Source: Nitrospira sp. BO4 (GTDB lineage Bacteria > Nitrospirota > Nitrospiria > Nitrospirales > Nitrospiraceae). From it: a stretch of 64,000 nt of DNA. The position numbers and the translations under genes are program-made. Under the pieces are notes generated by a model, which searched no databases, was not told the DNA's origin, and saw nothing but the letters and a program-made list of their open reading frames with translations. Where the stretch lies: positions 558,001-622,000 of the forward strand of contig JAMPUU010000017.1 of the NCBI GenBank assembly GCA_030144965.1, written 5' to 3'. Positions 24,663 to 43,848 of the stretch are shown in pieces. Position 1 is the stretch's first letter; each line of letters opens with the position of its first letter.

Positions 24663-25562
24663 CTACTCAAGCGGCACCGTAATCATCGCCTCATTCCCCC
24701 GTTCGTTGTATGTCAAGCAAGGAAAGAACGATCGGGCCAAAAAGATCCCTCGCCCGTTCGCGCCTACGGACTCACAACCGTCCTGGGATCGCGTGAGCAG
24801 ACTCCGCCACTTGAAGCCCTTTCCCTCATCGGTGATGCGGTACACCAAGTTGTTGGCACTCTTGTCGTGAAGCACATGAATGACCACCCGGCGGTCTCGG
24901 AGCCGTGATTGGGCGAGGCGGTTGGCGAGGAGTTGCTCATAGTGGCCGTTAATCAGAGCTTCCCGCTTCTCCTGATAAAAGATCTCGAGATTCCCATGTT
25001 CGATCGCGTTGAAGAGCAACTCCTGAAGGGTTCCCCGAAGATGGAGCCGTTGTATCGGAGGCAAGGTCGAGGCCGTCGTCTTGATCAACCAGGAAATGAC
25101 CCCCGGAATGTGTGTGGGGTCGGAATCGACCGTCAGTCGATATTCCGACAGGCAAAGTCCAGGCAGCTCCGCCAGGTCTCCAGGCAGTAGATCCTGAGCA
25201 CGCTGCAGCGCGCGGGCCAGTTCTTCCTCGACGATGGGCTTGTGGAGATAGTCGGCAGCCCCGACGCGAAGCGCCTCGACAATGATGGGTTCCGGCGCAT
25301 CTCTCGCCATCACGATGACCGGGCAGAGCTCATGCCGGGCCCTGATCTCTTTGACCAGTCTGAGACCGGCTGCTTCCGGAAGAAACGCGTCGGTGATAAC
25401 AATGTCCGGCGAAGCCAGATCGATCGCAGTCAGAGCGGTCGCCGGATCAGACGCGGCGACGACCGAAAATCCTCTCCCCTCCAGATGTCGGACGATACGT
25501 GCCTGCGTTTCTCGACATGGATCGATGATCAAGAGCTGGTTGCGAGCATCGAGCATGCTCAT
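24663..25562 (-). CDS. Receiver domain fused to an anti-sigma-type HATPase (RsbW-like)
   Basis: Cytoplasmic 299-residue regulator. Residues 5-125 are a CheY-type receiver with phospho-acceptor D58 (ITDAFLP) and K108 (LHKP). Residues about 145-299 are a GHKL ATPase with N-box ELLFNAIEHGN near 178-188, G1 DEGKGF and G2 GANGRGI, ending FNERGNEAMI-like strands. This is the kinase fold that phosphorylates STAS antagonists in partner switching. Its ATG overlaps the Hpt stop (TCAT on the plus strand), so it is co-translated with the Hpt gene and closes the operon. Phosphorylation of the receiver could control kinase activity toward the STAS proteins encoded nearby; that is inference. Confidence 0.88.
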   Translation of the reverse strand: MSMLDARNQLLIIDPCRETQARIVRHLEGRGFSVVAASDPATALTAIDLASPDIVITDAFLPEAAGLRLVKEIRARHELCPVIVMARDAPEPIIVEALRVGAADYLHKPIVEEELARALQRAQDLLPGDLAELPGLCLSEYRLTVDSDPTHIPGVISWLIKTTASTLPPIQRLHLRGTLQELLFNAIEHGNLEIFYQEKREALINGHYEQLLANRLAQSRLRDRRVVIHVLHDKSANNLVYRITDEGKGFKWRSLLTRSQDGCESVGANGRGIFLARSFFPCLTYNERGNEAMITVPLE

Positions 25563-25918
25563 GCGGCGATTCCCTCGTCGAGTACCCGGCGGAGCGCCGC
25601 CAGAAGGCGAAGAAGTTCGCGTTCCAACGCGTCGTAGTGTTCTCCGGCTTGCGTTAAATTTCCGGCTTTCGCCGCTTCTTCCAGGTCTTTGCAGGCGTGA
25701 AGGGCAGCCGGAGCGCAGAACTGGAGAATCGCTCCCTTCAAGCGGTGACTGGATCGCGCCAACCCTACGGCATTCTGGCCGCTCAGCGCCGCCTGAGCTT
25801 CGCCCAAGTCCTTGGGGCCATGCTCGACAAACAATTCCACCATCATCTGAAAGATCTCTCGATCGTGATCCACGCGGGCGAGGGCCTCGTCGAGGTTGAA
25901 GACGGGGTCAAGAGTCAT
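25559..25918 (-). CDS. Histidine phosphotransfer (Hpt) domain protein
   Basis: Small four-helix phosphorelay carrier, 119 residues, with the phospho-accepting histidine H58 in the motif SSHRLKGA and a second helix containing DLEEAAKAG. No other domain. It sits between a receiver-PP2C gene (11-base overlap) and a receiver-HATPase gene (4-base overlap). The natural guess is that it shuttles phosphate between those receivers or to and from CheA; the partner cannot be read from sequence. Confidence 0.9.
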   Translation of the reverse strand: MTLDPVFNLDEALARVDHDREIFQMMVELFVEHGPKDLGEAQAALSGQNAVGLARSSHRLKGAILQFCAPAALHACKDLEEAAKAGNLTQAGEHYDALERELLRLLAALRRVLDEGIAA

Positions 25919-27140
25919 GAAAGGTCTCTCTCAATTCGGAGATTTCGAGACCCATCAACGCCACATCATCGGGAAATTGTTCGTGCCCCAGCCACCCGAT
26001 CGCCGTCTCGATGGTCCCCGAGACGACCTCTTCCAGAGGGCGATCGCCGAATGAACGAATCGTCTTCTCCAGACGATCTTGCCCCCACAGTTCGCCGCTC
26101 GACGACGGCACTTCATAGAGACCGTCACTCAGAAGGTACAGGCGATCACCCGGCTCAACAGGGACCTTTTCTGTGAGGTAGGTCATCGACCCATCGAAGC
26201 CAAGCGGCAAATTTGGTCGAGCCATCCGACAGATTTCACCCGACCGGCGGTGAAGAAGCGCCCCATTGTGTCCGGCTGTCGAATAAGAGAGTGTGCGAGA
26301 GCGGGTATCGAGTCTGGCAAAGATGATCGTAAAGTAGTTTCCATCCTCCGTCAGAGGAAACTGTTTATTTGCTTCTGTCAGGATGGCGCCCGGATCGTTC
26401 GATCCGACGGCATGCAGCAGGCTGTCCCTCCGCAAAAAGGTCGAAAACGACGCGGAGCGCAGAGCCGGAGAGACACCGTGCCCGGACGCATCGAGCAAAT
26501 ACAGCCCCAGCACGTCTTCGCTCCACGGGACGACATTGAAGAGATCACCCCCCAACGCAAGCGACGGTCGATAGGCATGCACCATGCGAACACCGTGCAG
26601 GAGCGTCCCCGCAACGGGAAGGAGTGATTCGACATAGCGTGCGGCAGACTGGAGTTCCCGTTCGATGGCCTCCTGTTTTCGCTGGATTTCTTCCGTCACA
26701 TGCTCCAGCCTTCTGATCAACGTCGCCGCGCGCATCCCGGCCTGGACTCGAGCGGTAATTTCATACTTGCTTGCGGCCTTGCTGAGAAAGTCATCCGCAC
26801 CGCGGGCCAGCCCTTCAGCGATTTGCTCGGGCTGATCATGACTCGTCATCATGAGAATCTGGCTCGTCAGGAGCTCCGGATCTTGACGAACCAGTTCGCA
26901 GAAGGACGGGCCGTCCATTTCCGGCATCATCCAGTCCAAGATGGTCAGATCCGGCCGCTCGCGTCGAAGCATATCGAGTCCGGCCTTTCCATCGCCGGCT
27001 TCGATCACACGATAACCGAGCCGTTTGAGCCGAGCCGCCAATGCGATGCGCGCAACAGGCTCGTCGTCCACAACCAGAACGGTTTGCTCTTTCCCATCTT
27101 CTGAATGGCGGAGCATAGTCACGGGTAATGGAGTCGGCAT
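25908..27140 (-). CDS. Receiver domain fused to a PP2C-type (SpoIIE/RsbU) serine phosphatase
   Basis: 410 residues. Residues 20-140 are a receiver with D25/D26, phospho-acceptor D69 (TILDWMMPEMDG) and conserved Lys in LSKAA. A helical linker (EEIQRKQEAIEREL) precedes a PP2C/SpoIIE domain with the metal-binding motifs LGGDLFNVV, LDASGHGVSPAL, STAGHNGALL, LLSDGLYEV and FPDDVALM, all intact. Such proteins dephosphorylate STAS antagonists and so release them to bind their partner kinase. The gene is 79 bases downstream of the STAS gene at 27220-27570, its likely substrate. Same operon as the chemotaxis genes. Confidence 0.93.
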   Translation of the reverse strand: MPTPLPVTMLRHSEDGKEQTVLVVDDEPVARIALAARLKRLGYRVIEAGDGKAGLDMLRRERPDLTILDWMMPEMDGPSFCELVRQDPELLTSQILMMTSHDQPEQIAEGLARGADDFLSKAASKYEITARVQAGMRAATLIRRLEHVTEEIQRKQEAIERELQSAARYVESLLPVAGTLLHGVRMVHAYRPSLALGGDLFNVVPWSEDVLGLYLLDASGHGVSPALRSASFSTFLRRDSLLHAVGSNDPGAILTEANKQFPLTEDGNYFTIIFARLDTRSRTLSYSTAGHNGALLHRRSGEICRMARPNLPLGFDGSMTYLTEKVPVEPGDRLYLLSDGLYEVPSSSGELWGQDRLEKTIRSFGDRPLEEVVSGTIETAIGWLGHEQFPDDVALMGLEISELRETFHDS

Positions 27141-27219
27141 TGGGTGATGCTCTAATGAGAGAGACGTTGCGCGTCAGGAGGAACGGCCACGCGTGCCGTC
27201 AGACAATTCCACGAGCGAT

Positions 27220-27570
27220 CTAGGCTGCGCGTTGGTGTCCGGCCAATGCGTCTTGCTCGTTGTCGTAGACAGGAATCAACTTCTGAATATTCGCCAGGCT
27301 CATGATCTCCCGCACATAGCTTTGAGGCTTCAACATACTCACTTTCGCCTGACTCAACTTGAAGTTCTGCGAGACGAGGGCCAATAATCCGAGGCCGGAG
27401 CTGTCCACGAATCGGACCTCGGCCATGTTCAAGATCAAATGCCGACAGCCTTTTTGCCGGATGGTTTCCACGGCCGTCTTGAATTGTTCGCGATTGGCAT
27501 AGGTGAGATCGCCCGTCATCTCGAGAATGACACCGTTCGGCACGGGGCGCTCTTTCGTCTGCATCGACAT
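27220..27570 (-). CDS. STAS-domain anti-sigma factor antagonist (SpoIIAA/RsbV-like)
   Basis: 116 residues from the ATG at 27570, which has GGAGG five bases upstream; the upstream in-frame ATG at 27585 lies before this ribosome site and is rejected. The STAS fold is clear: LEMTGDLTYANREQFK, HLILNMAEVRFVDSSGLGLLAL. The DSSGLG loop is the canonical phospho-site of SpoIIAA-type antagonists, so it is probably the substrate of the nearby HATPase kinase and PP2C phosphatase. It shares its ending pattern (SLANIQKLIPVYDNEQDAL) with the neighbouring STAS gene, indicating duplication. Confidence 0.92.
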   Translation of the reverse strand: MSMQTKERPVPNGVILEMTGDLTYANREQFKTAVETIRQKGCRHLILNMAEVRFVDSSGLGLLALVSQNFKLSQAKVSMLKPQSYVREIMSLANIQKLIPVYDNEQDALAGHQRAA

Positions 27571-27618
27571 GGGATCCTCCTTCATTCGGATGAGTCCGGA
27601 CCAGGTTACTTGTTTCGA

Positions 27619-27957
27619 TCAAGCGGCGCGAGCATCAACCGCAGCCTGCTCGCTGGGAAATACTGCGATCATCCGGTCTATATTCGCCATCTCCAAAATC
27701 TGCTTCACCGTACCTTGCGGGTCCACGAGGCTGATGCTTCGGTTGTCCGCCGTGAGCTGCTGAGACGTCAACGCCAGGAGACCCACTGCGGCACTATCCA
27801 TGTAGGTCACCTCGTGCAGATTGACGATGAGATGCCTGCCTCCGGACTCCCTGAAATGCGTCACCGCAGAGGAGAACTCCTTGCGATTACGGTACGTGAA
27901 GACGTCGTCGATGTCTATCAATGTCGCGTTGTGTGTGATCCGTTGAGTGATCGCCAT
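27619..27957 (-). CDS. STAS-domain protein, paralogue with altered phospho-loop
   Basis: 112 residues, ATG at 27957, 13 bases after the cheB stop. The STAS core is recognisable (IDIDDVFTYRNRKEFSSAV, HLIVNLHEVTYMDSAAVGLLAL) and the C-terminus EMANIDRMIAVFPSEQAAV parallels the adjacent STAS protein. The phospho-loop reads DSAAVG where the neighbour has DSSGLG, so the second serine is alanine. It could be a non-switching binder or could still be phosphorylated on the first serine. Located between cheB and the partner-switching genes. Confidence 0.9.
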   Translation of the reverse strand: MAITQRITHNATLIDIDDVFTYRNRKEFSSAVTHFRESGGRHLIVNLHEVTYMDSAAVGLLALTSQQLTADNRSISLVDPQGTVKQILEMANIDRMIAVFPSEQAAVDARAA

Positions 27958-27970
27958 AGCGACTCCGGGG

Positions 27971-29044
27971 TCAACCGCGGCTCACGTGGGTAAGGATGGC
28001 GCCGGCAATGTCATCCAGCGGTAGAACCTTGTCGACGGCGCCCGCTTTGATCGCCTCTTTCGGCATACCGAATACGACGCAACTCGCTTCATCTTGTGCA
28101 ATCGTAAACGCGCCGGCCTGCTTCATCGTCAACATTTCCTTGGCGCCGTCGCCTCCCATTCCGGTCAAGATCACCCCAATCGCGTTGGCGCCGGCATAGC
28201 GCGCTACCGATGCAAACATCACATCGACCGACGGGCGATGACGATTGACCGGTGGCTCTTGGTTGATGCGCGCCGTGTACCGGGCCCCGCTCCTGACCAA
28301 CGTCATGTGATAATTTCCTGGGGCGATCAACGCATGTCCAGGCAATACACTGTCTCCATCTTGAGCTTCCTTTACGGAGATCCGGCAGAGGCTGTTTAAC
28401 CGATCAGCCCATGTCTTCGTAAAGCGTTCCGGCATGTGCTGCGTGATCAGGATGGGGGGTGTATGAGGCGGAAGCATTTCCAACACTTGCTTCACCGCCT
28501 CTGTTCCGCCGGTCGATGAGCCGATGGCAATGATGGTGTCGGTCGTCTTGATCATCGCGGAAGAAGAATTATATACCGTCTCTCGCCATTCACTTCTTGT
28601 CGCAGATCCTTCCGCTCCTCGATTCGGCGTTGAAGCCCGGATGCGGGCTACCGCGGCCGCTTTAACCTTGGCGATCAGATCTTGCGCGAGCTCCTCCATG
28701 CCTTCTCGAAGGTCGATCTTGGGCTTCGTAATGAAATCCACGGCGCCGAGCTCCAGTGCACGCAACGTCGTTTGACAGCCGGCTTCCGTCAGAGAGCTGA
28801 CCATCACCACCGGCAGCGGATGCCCACGCATCAACTTCTCCAAGAACGTCAGGCCGTCCATTTTTGGCATTTCTACATCGAGCGTCAGCACGTCAGGACT
28901 CAAGGCCTTAATCTTTTCTCGCGCGATATAGGGGTCAGGCGCGGCCCCGATCACTTCAATTTCCGGATCCTTCGATAAGAGAGTCGCCAGGACTTGCCGC
29001 ATCAGCGCTGAATCGTCAATCGTCAAGACGCGAATCTTCTTCAT
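27971..29044 (-). CDS. cheB: Chemotaxis protein-glutamate methylesterase/deamidase CheB
   Basis: Removes methyl groups from receptor glutamates and is activated by phosphorylation from CheA. Start set to the ATG at 29044 (357 residues, MKKIRVLTIDD), which has GAGG upstream; the longer frame adds 23 unconserved residues. Receiver domain with D10/D11, D56 (LTLDVEMPKMDG); linker; catalytic domain with the Ser in AIGSSTGGTEAV, His in ITQHMPERFT and Asp in TGMGGDGAKEM. All catalytic residues are present. Follows cheD and cheR in the adaptation block of the operon. Confidence 0.96.
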   Translation of the reverse strand: MKKIRVLTIDDSALMRQVLATLLSKDPEIEVIGAAPDPYIAREKIKALSPDVLTLDVEMPKMDGLTFLEKLMRGHPLPVVMVSSLTEAGCQTTLRALELGAVDFITKPKIDLREGMEELAQDLIAKVKAAAVARIRASTPNRGAEGSATRSEWRETVYNSSSAMIKTTDTIIAIGSSTGGTEAVKQVLEMLPPHTPPILITQHMPERFTKTWADRLNSLCRISVKEAQDGDSVLPGHALIAPGNYHMTLVRSGARYTARINQEPPVNRHRPSVDVMFASVARYAGANAIGVILTGMGGDGAKEMLTMKQAGAFTIAQDEASCVVFGMPKEAIKAGAVDKVLPLDDIAGAILTHVSRG

Positions 29045-29068
29045 CCGTACCTCGTGATTCGTGAAGCA
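29041..29068. repeat. Copy of the TTCACGA/TCGTGAA dispersed repeat at the cheB start
   Basis: The plus strand reads CGTACCTCGTGA then TTCGTGAAGC here. On the coding strand the copy runs into the cheB ribosome site (GAGGTACGG-ATG). The same word CGTACCTCGTGA recurs inside cheA near 35341-35352, and CGTGAAGCG-type words recur in other gaps of this operon. Confidence 0.4.
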
Positions 29069-29119
29069 TCTCGCTCCATCCCTGCAAGCGACGGGATCTA
29101 AACCATGCCTCACGATCGA

Positions 29120-33936: not shown

Positions 33937-36120
33937 TCACGCTGCCACCGCTTCGCCTCTACGGGCGATTTCCAGCATTCCCCGCACGTCCAGAATAAAG
34001 CCCACCGTGCCGTCTCCGAGAATGGTGGCGCCGGCAATTCCTTCGACCTTGTGGAAGTTTTGCTCCATGCTCTTGATGACGACCTGCTGCTGGCCAATAA
34101 TTTCATCCACCATCACTGCCACTCGCTCGCCCTCCGTCTCCAGGATGAGCAGAATGCTCTTCGCCGGATCCGTATACTCCGGTTGTAGATTGAATACCTC
34201 GTACAGACGCACCATCGACAGAAAGGTGCCGCGGACATTGATCAGCTCCCCTTTGCCGACGACGGTTTTCACCGCTTCTCGCTTCGGCTGAATGGACTCC
34301 AGAATCGAGAGCAGCGGCACGATGTATGTTTCTCGCCCGATCCGGACGGTCATGCCTTCGATGATCGCCAGGGTGAGGGGCAGTTTCAAGGTGAAGGTCG
34401 TCCCCTTTCCCGCCATGGTCTTGATGCTGATCGTGCCGCCCAGAGCATCGATGTTCCGCTTCACGACATCCATCCCGACCCCTCGCCCGGATACGTCCGT
34501 CACTTTCTCCGCGGTCGAGAACCCGGGTTTGAAAATGAGCAGCCAAATCTGATCGTCCGTCAGCTTGTCGTTCTCCCCGATCAGCCCTTGCTTGATCGCC
34601 TTCGCGACGATCTTCTCACGGCTCAGGCCACGCCCGTCGTCTTCCACCGTGATGCAGATATTTCCACCCTCATGAAACGCGTTCAGCTTGATCGTGCCGG
34701 TTTCGTGCTTGTTGCTGTCGAGGCGCTCCTCCGGCAGTTCCACGCCATGGTCGGCTGAGTTCCTGACGAGATGCGTCAGAGGATCGCCGATGGATTCGAT
34801 GACGGTTTTGTCCAATTCGGTTTCTTCACCCGATAAAACCAACTGAATTTTCTTCCCCATCTTCGCCGATAGATCGCGCACCAGCCGAGGGAAGCGGCTG
34901 AATGCCGTTCCGATTGGAAGCATGCGGATCCCCATGACACGCTCTTGAATCTCGCGGGTGTTCCTCTCCAGCTCCACCATTCGCTCAAGCAGCACCGGCA
35001 GCTGCCGCATCTCGAACCGTGCTCCCAGATCACTCAACATCGACTGGGTGATCACGAGTTCACCCACCAAATTGATGAGCTTGTCGATCTTGGCTGTATC
35101 CACACGAATGGACGTCGTGTCGGTTTTCTTGGCTTGAGCCGTGGATTCCTGTTGCCGCTGTTTTTGCAGCGCCTGCTCGACCTGCTGTGGCGTAGCGGCG
35201 TGTTGTTCGATGAGGATCTGGCCGACCCGCTTTTGCTGTGCCAGCGCGCTGTCCAACGTTTCGCGGGACACCACGCCGCTCTCGACCAGAATCTCTCCGA
35301 GGGGCTTCGGCTCTCCGTCTTCGACGCGTTGCTCGTCGTTCGTACCTCGTGAAGCGTTCGAATCCGAGGACGAAATACGTTTCACGGATGACGATTCACG
35401 TTCTTCAATCGTCAGCTTGCTGTCTTCCCGGACAAACTCGAATACCGCCTCAACGACTTTTCGGTCCTTGGCGGTAGCGAGCTGCATCTTCCACGTCAAG
35501 TAGCACTTCTCCGGGTCCACCTCATCCAAATCCGGTAACCTGGAGGCATCCACCTCTACTTGCAATAATGTGCCGAGATCCTGTAGCTCTTTGAAGACTT
35601 GCAGCGGGTCGAGGCCGCGCTGAAACATCCATTCTGGCGGGGTCCAGTCAATAGCAAAGAGATGCGACCCGTCAGCCGATGGCGAAGACGACGGCTTCTC
35701 CGATTCTCCTGTGGAACCGTCCGACGGAGTTTTTAACACACTGGCAGCGGTCAATTCCGTCGTGAGCCGTTGGGCCGCCTCGTTGTCCACCGACACACCG
35801 GTTTTGACGGCATCGATCAACGTCTTGAGACAGTCTATGGACCGGAGCAACAGATCGGCAATCGCCGGTGACACGGCCTTCTGCCCATTTCTGAGCAGAT
35901 CGAGCAGCGTCTCCATCTTATGGGTAAACTGTGCGACGGCGTTGAAACCGAACATGCCGCTCGTGCCCTTAATGGAGTGGGCGGAGCGAAAGATCTTGTT
36001 CAGCAGGTCTAGGTCTTCAGGATGCCGTTCCAGTTGCAGCAATCCCTCTTCGACCACCGCGAGATGTTCGGCGGCTTCTTCGAAGAACGCATCCTGAAAT
36101 TGCGCGAAATCGCTGCTCAT
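33937..36120 (-). CDS. cheA: Chemotaxis histidine kinase CheA
   Basis: Receptor-controlled histidine kinase, 727 residues. Domains: N-terminal Hpt with H48 (RSAHSIKGTSGMFGF); a second small region near 150-230; a variable linker near 240-265; a stretch with two GEILVESG/GQILIEQ repeats near 275-325 resembling the PilB/GspE N-terminal fold; dimerisation helices (KIDKLINLVGELVITQSML); the HATPase core (NSADHGVELPEER, DDGRGLSREKI, GRGVGMDVVKRN, GKGTTFTLKLPL); and a CheW-like tail. All catalytic motifs are intact. The linker segment is encoded by a copy of the repeat described at 35336-35405. Confidence 0.96.
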   Translation of the reverse strand: MSSDFAQFQDAFFEEAAEHLAVVEEGLLQLERHPEDLDLLNKIFRSAHSIKGTSGMFGFNAVAQFTHKMETLLDLLRNGQKAVSPAIADLLLRSIDCLKTLIDAVKTGVSVDNEAAQRLTTELTAASVLKTPSDGSTGESEKPSSSPSADGSHLFAIDWTPPEWMFQRGLDPLQVFKELQDLGTLLQVEVDASRLPDLDEVDPEKCYLTWKMQLATAKDRKVVEAVFEFVREDSKLTIEERESSSVKRISSSDSNASRGTNDEQRVEDGEPKPLGEILVESGVVSRETLDSALAQQKRVGQILIEQHAATPQQVEQALQKQRQQESTAQAKKTDTTSIRVDTAKIDKLINLVGELVITQSMLSDLGARFEMRQLPVLLERMVELERNTREIQERVMGIRMLPIGTAFSRFPRLVRDLSAKMGKKIQLVLSGEETELDKTVIESIGDPLTHLVRNSADHGVELPEERLDSNKHETGTIKLNAFHEGGNICITVEDDGRGLSREKIVAKAIKQGLIGENDKLTDDQIWLLIFKPGFSTAEKVTDVSGRGVGMDVVKRNIDALGGTISIKTMAGKGTTFTLKLPLTLAIIEGMTVRIGRETYIVPLLSILESIQPKREAVKTVVGKGELINVRGTFLSMVRLYEVFNLQPEYTDPAKSILLILETEGERVAVMVDEIIGQQQVVIKSMEQNFHKVEGIAGATILGDGTVGFILDVRGMLEIARRGEAVAA
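35336..35405. repeat. Dispersed repeat copy inside the cheA linker
   Basis: Plus strand holds CGTACCTCGTGAAGCG at 35341-35356 and the partner CGTTTCACG at 35378-35386, then CGATTCACG at 35392-35400. These match words found in intergenic copies at 29041, 36130-36225 and 38487-38560. Here the repeat is in frame and encodes a Ser/Arg-rich part of the CheA linker (about residues 241-261). Confidence 0.5.
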
Positions 36121-36674: not shown

Positions 36675-37202
36675 CTAGAACAGCGTGACGGAATCGGGCT
36701 CCTTCACCGGCATGTCGACCGGCACCGGCTCTTGATAGTCGGGCGTCAACGCTGCCGTGTGAAGACGGCGTTCTTCTTCCATCGTGTAGTGTTGCTCAAG
36801 CTGTTCCAGCGCGGCGATTTCCTGCTTCGCGCTGTCGTCATCCGGTCCTCGCATCAGCGCCTGAAGATGTCGGCTCCATTGATCCAACGCTTGCCCGACG
36901 TGTTCCAGCTTTTGTCGCGTGATATCTTGAAACTGCATCGCCATCACGATTTTTGACACACAGGCCGACCTCTCGTGCGGCGAAGCCTCCACTTCTGGAG
37001 ATGCCAGCAGGTGGAGATTCAGCACTAAGTCCATCGTAGCCCGCTCGGTTTCGTCGGTGACGGCCGTCATCTGAGCTTTCAACACCGGTATCAAGCGCAC
37101 GGCGCACGCCGCAAATGCCTCCCATGCCTGTCGATGCTCGTGGAGCTTGGCGACGTCGCCCATCTCGCCGCTGCCGGCTGAACATTCAACATTGTCGGTC
37201 AT
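36675..37202 (-). CDS. CheZ-like helical protein, candidate CheY-P phosphatase
   Basis: 175 residues, all-helical in appearance, with the motif MQFQDITRQKLEHV at 89-102. D93 and Q97 match the spacing of the Asp and Gln that form the active site of CheZ (FQDLTGQ). A flexible Pro-rich tail ends in DSVTLF, comparable to the EDVTLF end of CheD. It is not the only such gene: a clearer CheZ is at 39351-39938. Located between a STAS gene and cheY. Function as a phosphatase is an inference from the motif. Confidence 0.7.
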   Translation of the reverse strand: MTDNVECSAGSGEMGDVAKLHEHRQAWEAFAACAVRLIPVLKAQMTAVTDETERATMDLVLNLHLLASPEVEASPHERSACVSKIVMAMQFQDITRQKLEHVGQALDQWSRHLQALMRGPDDDSAKQEIAALEQLEQHYTMEEERRLHTAALTPDYQEPVPVDMPVKEPDSVTLF

Positions 37203-37235: not shown

Positions 37236-37538
37236 CTATTCGCTGAGCGGTTCGGAAAATCCGAGTTGAGTCAATCTTGCTTGCAGATCTCGGGAAAGAC
37301 CCGTGACAAACATCCGGCCCCGTTTCCGCGCGGCCCATAGCAACTGGATGATTGCGGTATCTGCCCGTGAGACTTTCCCAAGGTCGAGTGAAACCAGCCC
37401 ATCGTTCTGAAATAGTTTGAGCAAGTCCGCCTTGAACTCCGCCGCCTCGAAAATGGTGAGATCGCCGTCTGGAGCCAGGTGCCTGCCGTTCGGCTCTTCC
37501 GCCCGGTGTGCCTTAGATGCAATCGGTTCCGCCGTCAT
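37236..37538 (-). CDS. STAS-domain protein (MlaB/antagonist-like)
   Basis: 100 residues. Pattern APDGDLTIFEAAEFKADLLKLF followed by LVSLDLGKVSRADTAIIQLLWAA fits a STAS fold; the loop that carries serine in SpoIIAA-type proteins reads ADTAII here. It is separated from motB by 94 bases and from the CheZ-like gene by 33. STAS proteins of this sort accompany chemotaxis genes in several phyla; the partner is unknown. It may join the two STAS proteins at 27220-27957 in the same regulatory circuit. Confidence 0.82.
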   Translation of the reverse strand: MTAEPIASKAHRAEEPNGRHLAPDGDLTIFEAAEFKADLLKLFQNDGLVSLDLGKVSRADTAIIQLLWAARKRGRMFVTGLSRDLQARLTQLGFSEPLSE

Positions 37539-39350: not shown

Positions 39351-39938
39351 TCATTTGAACCCGAATTGAGCCAAGATATCGTCGGCGACTTTTTGCTTCA
39401 TGGCCGTCGTTTTGGAGTCCTCGAGTTGTTTGAGCAAGTGGCCGGCCGTTCCGGTGGAAGTGATTTGTTCGCCGTTTTGTTGGAGCCCGAAGACGACGAC
39501 CAGTTCCATCAGCTTGTTCTGCACCTCATCAAGGATGGTCACAAGCTTCTTGACTCGTTGAGCAACAAGATCTTGAAAGGAGAGAGCGGTCATGATTTCC
39601 GTCAAGTGCTTGGCGTCCTGCGCGATCACGATGCTCACCTTCTCCAGACGTTCTGCGAGCTTCACGCAATCGATTGCCTGTAGCGTGTCGACGACGGAAC
39701 AGAGGTCCTTCGCCACTCGGTCGCGATTGTCTTGGATCATCTCGGTCAGACGCATGACCTCGAGGGTTCCGGTCTCCGTCATCCGATTGAGCTCGCTGAG
39801 ATGTGATGAGGCCGCCGGCAATTGCGCGCTGCTGGCCACGATCTGAGGACCGGCGTGCGAAATCGTCGTCATCGCCTTCTCGACAAAGCGAGCCAGTTCA
39901 CCGAGTTCTCCGTACAACTTGTGTCCCTGGTTCTCCAC
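39351..39938 (-). CDS. cheZ: Chemotaxis protein phosphatase CheZ
   Basis: Dephosphorylates CheY-P. 195 residues forming a long helical hairpin, with catalytic D123 and Q127 in LSFQDLVAQRVKKL and the C-terminal CheY-binding amphipathic peptide ADDILAQFGF, matching the DDLLDSLGF end of enterobacterial CheZ. It lies between a flagellar-type cheY (46 bases upstream) and motA (12 bases downstream), the classic partner arrangement. Confidence 0.92.
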   Translation of the reverse strand: MENQGHKLYGELGELARFVEKAMTTISHAGPQIVASSAQLPAASSHLSELNRMTETGTLEVMRLTEMIQDNRDRVAKDLCSVVDTLQAIDCVKLAERLEKVSIVIAQDAKHLTEIMTALSFQDLVAQRVKKLVTILDEVQNKLMELVVVFGLQQNGEQITSTGTAGHLLKQLEDSKTTAMKQKVADDILAQFGFK

Positions 39939-42125: not shown

Positions 42126-43136
42126 TCATCGAAGCCCTTGCACGATCACCGCATACCATCCGAGGCCGTCGTATTCCTGATAGCCGAGCGTTTTGGCATA
42201 CGCGACCACGTCGTGTTTGTCGTTCACGTAATGGCCTCGTTCACGTCCTTGATGTTGGAGCGCGAAGGGCAACAGTATTCCTTGATCATCGGATGCCGCG
42301 ATCACCCGCAGCTTGTTGTCCAGCAAGATCACGCGGGTACGTTTCCATGCAGCTTCGGATATCGCCGGTTCTTTTTGAACAATAATTCTGGCTTGCTCTT
42401 CCCAATCAAACACCACTCCTAGAACACCGATGATCTTTCCGTTCGGCTTCCCCTCCTTCCGAACGGCGGCGGCGTACACCGCGACCAGTTTGTCGCCGTG
42501 GAGTGAGTCATGACCGATGTCGTCGACCACGTACTGGTCGCCGTTCGTCGTCGCCATGGCTTTCTGAAACCACGCGCATCTGGTCGCATCGGCCCTGGTG
42601 ACCTTGGGAAACTTCTCCGGGTGCGAGGAGGCCATGATCTTTCCGTCGATTCCGACCAAGACAAGGTTGAGATAGACCGAATAATATCGATTGATCAGCC
42701 CGAGTCGTTCGGCTGCATGATGGAGAGCAGTTCCATCGGCAGCTTCGAGACCGTTGACCAAGGCTTCATCCATCGCCCACCACCGAACGTCGGCGGTGCG
42801 TTCGTACAGATTGCGTACGATCAACTGCACCAGTGTCTGTGCCATCTCTGAAAGGCGATCGTGTTCTTTGTCCATGAATCGCCGATTCAATTCGCTCGTT
42901 TCCTCCCGTATTGAGCTCAATGCTTTGGAGGCGTCGGCGGCTTGCGTGGCCAGGTTTTTCACCTCTGTCGCAACCACGGCAAATCCTCTGCCTGCATCAC
43001 CGGCTCTCGCCGCTTCTATGGTCGCGTTCAGCGAAAGAATGGTGATCTCGCTTGTGATTCTTGCGTTCACAAGCCGATGGTCGTCGATCCGATTCTCAAT
43101 GTTGCCGATGATCTCTTTAATATTGAGCTGGTTCAT
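42126..43136 (-). CDS. Soluble MCP signalling fragment with C-terminal double-Cache-like sensor
   Basis: 336 residues from the ATG at 43136 (the longer frame adds Arg-rich unconserved residues that overlap the PilZ gene). Residues about 20-85 carry the receptor hairpin tip ([20 protein letters not shown], then [13 protein letters not shown]). There is no membrane segment, no HAMP domain and no room for methylation helices. Residues about 95-335 look like a dCache sensor ([54 protein letters not shown]). Domain order is reversed compared with ordinary receptors. A cytoplasmic sensor that plugs into CheA/CheW arrays is a reasonable guess. Last gene of the flagellin-side run. Confidence 0.83.
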
Positions 43137-43221
43137 GAACGTTCCCTGGGTTTGTCTCCGCTCGTCCGGTGCCCCCTGGATCCCTCCGTGAGGCCCGCGG
43201 TTTCCATGAACTCTTTTTCTC

Positions 43222-43848
43222 CTAGCCGGGATGTGCACGACGTGCACGCAAGCGTTCCGCCTGTGTGTGGAGGATGTGGCGGATGAGGTGCTCCTGACCG
43301 TCCACGCTGATCTCAACAAACTCTGTGGCCAAATCCCAGCCCTGTCCCTGAGGATTCAGCGTCGATCGGATAACTTGCGCGACAGCATGCACGGGAGTAA
43401 AGGGAGGCAGGATCATCTTGACCGATAATCGGTCTCCGGCGGCGAATTCACGGGAGGACACGAAGCCCACTCCTCCTCCGCTCAGATTGATATCCATCAG
43501 CCTCGCCATCGCGACACTGGACGGCGCGATCGTCGCGAGAGAGTTGAGGATGACTCCGAGGAGATAGTCGACCTTCATCATCCAAGGCAACACCGGTGAG
43601 TCCATCAACGATTCGCCGGATCGAGCCAAAAGATCCGCTGTCGGTTTCGTCACTGCCGCCGTGATCGTGTCCGGGGTGGCGCCCCCCTCATCGACACCGG
43701 TTGCAATCACCGGCTCGTCCACCAGGCGGTATTCCATGAGCACCCGATCCTCGATTCTGATCCATTCACGCCGTTCGTCTACGGCGTGCTTGGGTTTGGG
43801 TGATGAGGGGACGGTCGGTGGTGCCATGGTCATCTTGCTTTCAGGCAT
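43222..43848 (-). CDS. PilZ domain protein
   Basis: Probable c-di-GMP effector, 208 residues. The PilZ signature is present in two pieces: RREWIR near the N-terminus (RxxxR) and [11 protein letters not shown] in the C-terminal half (N-x-S-x-x-G). Between them is an insert of about 80 residues rich in Ala/Thr/Leu. Its ATG overlaps the stop of the degenerate GGDEF gene (TAATG), so translation is coupled. In this flagellar context it could act as a brake or regulator of motor or receptor; the mode is unknown. Confidence 0.88.

Follow-up and report, generated by a model that had tools for sequence, protein, structure and literature searches.

The window, a stretch of 64,000 nucleotides (nt) of the genome of Nitrospira sp. 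BO4 (contig C17, positions 558001–622000; all C17 coordinates below refer to the same contig), carries on its minus strand five consecutive genes for two STAS-only proteins (STAS1 and STAS2), a receiver-linked PP2C phosphatase (REC-PP2C), a free phosphotransfer protein (Hpt) and a receiver-linked RsbW-like kinase (REC-HATPase). As judged by domain content and motifs, this block is a partner-switching cassette. Its distribution tracks the flagellum and not chemotaxis as such, and the two receivers are unequal—intact on the phosphatase and degenerate on the kinase. The kinase and the phosphatase probably act on STAS2, with the phosphatase being the input for phosphorylation. The whole favored reading, a flagellum-tied partner switch with phosphatase-side input and an output from STAS2 to FlgM, stands evenly poised between right and wrong.

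The five-gene switch lies 3′ of a chemotaxis and motor run on the same strand, which consists of cheY, cheZ, motA, motB, STAS3, a gene for a 175-residue protein, cheA, cheW, a gene for a methyl-accepting chemotaxis protein (MCP), cheR, cheD, and cheB (Table 1). The initial annotation had placed a phosphatase, a kinase, an Hpt protein, and two STAS genes next to cheB, and all five were recovered at its positions and on the minus strand. They are contiguous, as its back-to-back description had it, but the STAS genes come first and not last as its wording implied: The order of transcription is cheB–STAS1–STAS2–REC-PP2C–Hpt–REC-HATPase. The overlapping starts ascribed to three of the genes are present as well, with 11 nt shared by the phosphatase and Hpt genes and 4 nt (ATGA) by the Hpt and kinase genes; the spacing from STAS2 to the phosphatase gene is 79 nt. 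The Pfam assignments of all five proteins exceed the curated cut-offs, and the HATPase_c_2 match of the kinase scores 33.7 bits against a cut-off of 27.4. The other flank is formed by convergent genes of the general secretion/pilus type, named here as gspK/L/M-like.

Table 1. Genes of the switch and of the adjoining chemotaxis run (positions within the window)
Feature	Position	Strand	Description
STAS1	27619..27957	-	112 aa, STAS-only; Pfam STAS 57.7 bits; site MDSAAVG, Ser kept
STAS2	27220..27585	-	121 aa, STAS-only; Pfam STAS 68.7 bits; DSSGLG phospho-site; predicted main substrate
REC-PP2C phosphatase (SpoIIE/RsbU-type)	25908..27140	-	410 aa; Pfam Response_reg and SpoIIE (126.9 bits)
Hpt phosphotransfer protein	25559..25918	-	119 aa; Pfam Hpt 43.1 bits; HRLKGA; overlaps both neighbors
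REC-HATPase_c_2 predicted serine kinase (RsbW/SpoIIAB/LvrC-type)	24663..25562	-	299 aa; Pfam Response_reg and HATPase_c_2
cheB	27971..29113	-	Pfam; 13 nt upstream of the switch; dispensable neighbor
cheA	33937..36120	-	Pfam; chemotaxis kinase
STAS3	37236..37538	-	100 aa; STAS_2, 35 bits; site RADTA (Thr); between motB and cheA

A scan of genomes based on the kinase yielded 26 Nitrospira loci, in which the phosphatase gene is followed by the Hpt and kinase genes without interruption as far as each contig extends. The block is hence no chance arrangement, since this order is kept. Of 79 Nitrospira genomes, 69 have a kinase ortholog, a count that leaves out two partial matches. A search of the phylum also turned up the module in other Nitrospiraceae genera (g2, g4, and g5) and more loosely related versions in a sister family, and a plasmid search with the phosphatase returned only generic REC-PP2C matches of about 30% identity. 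Genome G019 carries a second, rearranged copy of the module (L080:7271–9823), in which the phosphatase is broken into two reading frames and the kinase is fused to what remains of the Hpt, minus its His. The genome under study itself has a second, separate partner switch at L025:8311–11668 (C17 approximately 166–170 kb, the switch itself at C17:167.6–169.6 kb): a 776-residue protein featuring an MHYT-like membrane domain, PAS, PP2C, and an RsbW-like kinase, after whose gene comes a dedicated pair of STAS genes.

The motifs of the phosphatase, the kinase, the Hpt protein, and the DSSGLG substrate, read as intact by the initial annotation, hold up in alignments across the Nitrospira loci. STAS2 retains DSSGLG in 26/26 loci and is the most conserved member of the switch (median identity of 93%); its solved-structure matches are SpoIIAA-type chains. 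The phosphatase keeps its metal-binding Asp motifs GGDLF, DASGHG, SDGxYE, and DDVA, and the His of Hpt is invariant in 27/27 sequences. In the kinase, QELLFNAxEHGN of the N-box and DEGxGF are conserved, the N-box E/N, G1, and G2 are intact, and the GRG of G2 is kept in 27 Nitrospira sequences. Kinase and phosphatase activities on the STAS proteins are predicted from these intact motifs. STAS1, with a conserved Ser in its DSxA site, was not found in 7 of the 26 loci and, as judged by this gene content, is dispensable to the switch.

The link to the flagellum emerges from co-occurrence. Among 49 Nitrospira genomes at least 90% complete, 45 have both the module and FliA, one has the module only, none has FliA only, and three have neither, so that module and FliA agree in 48/49 genomes and module and CheA in 43/49. 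In the other genera of the Nitrospiraceae the corresponding numbers are 23, 1, 7, and 8 (agreement in 31/39; p = 0.0008). FlgM is present in 64 of the 69 module-bearing genomes. The initial annotation saw no sigma factor in the window and proposed a genome search for sigma or anti-sigma partners. Candidates for both are encoded further along: FlgM 13 kb and FliA 19 kb after the window ends. In the outgroup genomes G202 and G292, fliA is directly followed by genes for a REC-PP2C and a REC-HATPase of the paralogous type with intact receiver, and then by a histidine kinase gene, a STAS3-like gene with DSSG, an MCP gene, and che genes.

The two receivers differ in their catalytic residues. That of the phosphatase features the complete set—two acidic residues, the acceptor Asp, Thr/Ser, and Lys—in 45/45 Nitrospiraceae loci, and, as DD, D, T, and K, in 26/26 Nitrospira loci; that of the kinase is complete in 0/46 Nitrospiraceae loci. 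The initial idea that both receivers serve phosphate flow is thus not supported for the kinase. The receiver of the kinase in the window has a DP pair in place of DD/DE and an Ala in place of Thr/Ser, and Nitrospira kinases mostly have DP/DS, with Ala or Gly replacing Thr. In g4, the Lys and the first of the acidic residues are missing from this receiver; in g5, all five residues are. The lesions are genus-specific, and decay would therefore have been independent, or stepwise after an ancestral loss. REC-HATPase kinases with all five residues are found in the sister-family outgroup (3/3), among paralogs (4/4), and in some unrelated bacteria. The paralogous family is encoded in sister genera amid different neighboring genes (L141:19032–19961, L138, and L139). 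The acceptor Asp of the degenerate receiver is mostly kept, and weak phosphorylation may still take place. With a mean pairwise identity of 73.1% as against 74.6% for the kinase domain, this receiver is as conserved as its partner domain and, hence, is kept rather than decaying. A predicted model of the kinase (predicted local distance difference test, pLDDT, of 85.7) has the receiver mostly above 80, and conservation and predicted fold agree in fitting a retained pseudo-receiver. That this pseudo-receiver docks the intact receiver of the phosphatase (or Hpt), holding both enzymes in one regulated complex in which the phosphorylation of a single receiver sets both activities—a split, two-protein HsbR driving the flagellar sigma factor—is an unlikely extension.

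The favored mechanism would run as follows. The RsbW-like kinase would phosphorylate the Ser of STAS2, and of STAS1 where present, and the PP2C phosphatase would remove the phosphate. The signal would enter via the phosphatase: A hybrid histidine kinase would phosphorylate the free Hpt, which would hand the phosphate on to the phosphatase's intact receiver and thereby alter the activity of that protein. The receiver of the kinase would no longer take phosphate normally and would serve, as a folded pseudo-receiver, in docking or allostery. The phospho-state of STAS2 would decide its binding partner, for which, from the genomic context, the anti-sigma factor FlgM is the best candidate: Unphosphorylated STAS2 would free sigma-28 (FliA) for the late flagellar genes. 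The direction—phosphorylation of the receiver turning the phosphatase on and freeing FliA—is borrowed from the HptB–HsbR–HsbA system of Pseudomonas aeruginosa. FlgM/FliA as the output is a reasonable suggestion that falls somewhat short of an even chance.

The source of the phosphate separates this mechanism from one in which CheA phosphorylates the receivers directly or via Hpt, with chemotactic signals setting the STAS phospho-state and expression following chemotaxis. CheA generally phosphorylates several receivers, the receiver of the phosphatase is complete, and adjacency to cheB is common; yet cheB is absent beside the switch at L039, L049, and L056, and in several genomes, including N. 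moscoviensis (L062), the module is preceded by motB or other genes. Chemotaxis CheA is also unlikely to be a required donor because three genomes of 99% completeness in which no chemotaxis CheA was found (G059, G063, and G066) keep the intact block beside motAB, directly next to motB and with cheA to cheB absent in between. An output of chemotaxis phosphate, as initially proposed, thereby finds no support in any obligatory sense. G017 likewise has the module and no CheA match but retains cheB, cheD, cheR, and MCPs, which makes its support weaker. The degeneracy of the kinase receiver speaks against CheA too, as does the Hpt: Hpt proteins usually accept phosphate from receiver domains of hybrid kinases, and a free Hpt implies such a kinase. 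Indeed, in the g5 module (L134) the phosphatase and Hpt genes are separated by that of a hybrid histidine kinase, and in the sister family (L135/L136) a STAS gene, an HD-GYP (DUF3391) gene, the gene of a hybrid kinase that includes an Hpt, and a REC-HATPase gene are consecutive in this order. A pair of the same architecture is present in the flagellar cluster of the genome under study, at L026:2332–6479 (C17:624332–628480), where an HD-GYP (DUF3391) gene overlaps the gene of a hybrid kinase (C17:625591–628476) that contains several receivers as well as an Hpt of its own, and a YcgR-type PilZ gene is nearby; identities of the pair to the outgroup proteins are only approximately 33%. Near-full-length orthologs of this kinase occur in 63 of the 69 module-bearing Nitrospira genomes by a tally read by hand from the match list. 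As judged by gene content, a hybrid kinase would be a likelier donor than CheA, with the L026 kinase as a candidate partner, although hybrid kinases are abundant, which weakens this assignment. A signal coming from CheA is, all told, improbable. Apart from this, Nitrospira genomes with flagellar genes and without the cheA-to-cheB block were observed at L082–L085, L089, and L090, with cheY kept in two and apparently lost in one.

Two further readings place the output elsewhere than FlgM. The REC-HATPase might itself be an anti-sigma factor, RsbW/LvrC-like, for a sigma factor different from FliA or additional to it, which dephosphorylated STAS2 would free. Its best match in profile and fold, LvrC, is a proposed receiver-regulated anti-sigma factor, CrsR of Shewanella binds RpoS directly, and the genome has several sigma-70-family genes; but the conserved module is free of sigma genes at all Nitrospiraceae loci read, the co-occurrence pattern favors a flagellar link, and sigma binding of the LvrC type was only inferred in its source paper (PMC13269768), leaving this an unlikely account. 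Alternatively, the output could be nontranscriptional, with STAS2 acting on cyclic di-GMP or on the motor (PilZ/YcgR, GGDEF, or HD-GYP) in the manner of HsbA-P/HsbD or SypA. The window contains GGDEF and PilZ genes, a YcgR-type PilZ gene and an HD-GYP gene stand beside the hybrid kinase, the outgroup operon includes HD-GYP, the module adjoins motAB in some genomes, and STAS2 is extremely conserved. With no GGDEF gene directly adjoining the Nitrospira module, this output is rather unlikely.

Several observations weigh against the phosphatase-fed switch with a FlgM output. Seven FliA-positive genomes of the family have no match to the module and make up most of the disagreement outside Nitrospira; presence and absence were assigned by hand from search tables, the counts ignore phylogeny, and genomes without FliA are few. 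FlgM and FliA are found in most flagellated bacteria, and co-occurrence, hence, indicates a flagellar link and not a target. In three module-bearing genomes (G017, G044, and G053), no counterpart of the hybrid kinase proposed as donor was found. Scans for sigma-28-like promoters gave no convincing site before the module, one pattern being modestly above chance (1 of 100 shuffles) and the other at chance. G149 and G019 have module genes and no FliA match, the module being near a contig end in both. G019, in which the copy begins at the contig edge, has no match to FliA, FlgM, or chemotaxis CheA, and its kinase deviates in the N-box (NAVVHGN) and in G2 (DGLG), which would fit relaxed constraint after loss of the flagellum. 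In G149 the motifs look intact, and either a missing contig or a nonflagellar role is possible.

The kinase has its best solved match in LvrC of Leptospira (9QIH), nearly over its full length, with values of 8.1e-45 by profile and 3.3e-18 by fold. The whole-chain TM-score is low (0.44), probably because of a differing domain arrangement. The molecule is labeled SenB in the entry, a name under which a literature search found no paper. LvrC joins a receiver to an RsbW-like domain, is phosphorylated by LvrB, and is proposed to be an anti-sigma factor (PMC13269768). TciR of Vogesella is another receiver–RsbW-like protein, whose authors knew of no characterized one (PMC12826045). The Nitrospiraceae kinase shares with both the order of receiver and RsbW-like Bergerat domain and the length of approximately 300 residues; however, the receiver of LvrC is canonical, whereas that of the Nitrospiraceae kinase is degenerate, the intact receiver being found on a separate protein, the REC-PP2C.

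In P. aeruginosa, HptB–HsbR–HsbA (PA3345–PA3347) has a hybrid-kinase input and a demonstrated FlgM/FliA output, in which unphosphorylated HsbA binds FlgM (PMC5085249, PMC6482189). It shares with the Nitrospiraceae module a free Hpt, a receiver-linked PP2C, an RsbW-like kinase, and a STAS substrate co-encoded beside chemotaxis or flagellar genes. HsbR unites receiver, PP2C, and kinase in one protein, whereas the Nitrospiraceae have two proteins wherever both genes were read, each with a receiver of its own, and often a second STAS protein. A hybrid kinase that may act as donor, as one does in the HptB system, is encoded inside the module of g5, while the Nitrospira candidate is in the flagellar cluster and was not found in several module-bearing genomes. 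CrsR–CrsA of Shewanella oneidensis (PMC6482189) also pairs a STAS protein with a PP2C domain and a kinase/anti-sigma domain under receiver control, but these domains are fused in one protein, CrsR, which itself binds the target RpoS. SypE–SypA of Vibrio fischeri (PMC3610818) likewise sets a receiver-controlled kinase and an opposing PP2C on a STAS protein; SypE unites these domains in one chain around a central receiver, and its output is biofilm formation, with a target that is not known. The module counts as a variant of known switches because it has neither the one-protein architecture of HsbR nor the canonical receiver of LvrC.

The initial annotation listed a third STAS gene, which lies in the chemotaxis run. 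The gene is real, but its phospho-site is not DSSG, and STAS3 was set aside as a third substrate of the switch given its non-Ser site and its absence from genomes without cheA, in which it was not found. Its orthologs sit between motB and the gene for the 175-residue protein that precedes cheA; all 20 genomes retrieved (20/20) have a STAS gene, divergent in two of them, next to cheA. The phospho-position is Thr in 17 of 18 clear orthologs and Ala in one, the two divergent copies having Ile or Ala; the Thr may still be phosphorylated. STAS3 is probably a protein of the CheA array, similar to CheS, and not a substrate of the switch. CheS of Sinorhizobium/Agrobacterium is a STAS protein of the chemotaxis array that binds CheA (PMC12654446); the likeness, drawn by description, lies in a small STAS-only protein encoded near cheA in a chemotaxis cluster.

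The conserved 175-residue protein between STAS3 and cheA (36675–37202, minus strand) has no Pfam match and contains QFQDITRQ, similar to the active-site motif of CheZ; the protein could be a second CheZ-like phosphatase beside that of cheZ at 39351–39938. Further on, a gene at 42126–43319 (minus strand) adjoins a PilZ and a GGDEF gene and encodes a small protein with a partial MCP signaling domain followed by a weak dCache-like region, an unusual order.

Nitrospira are major nitrifiers (nitrite-oxidizing) that grow in microcolonies, and the control of their decision to move or settle is little known. A genome paper on Nitrospira points to FleQ/FleSR-like regulators (PMC5767232), and a literature search, with most subscription literature outside its reach, found no paper on this switch or on partner switching in Nitrospira. 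Characterization of the REC–RsbW architecture has only just begun (LvrC in 2026 and TciR in 2025). Since homologous kinases of a single order carry either an intact or a degenerate receiver, they offer a comparative set for the rerouting of a phosphorelay from a kinase to its opposing phosphatase. For Nitrospira, the cassette is a concrete, testable candidate regulator of the control of moving or settling.

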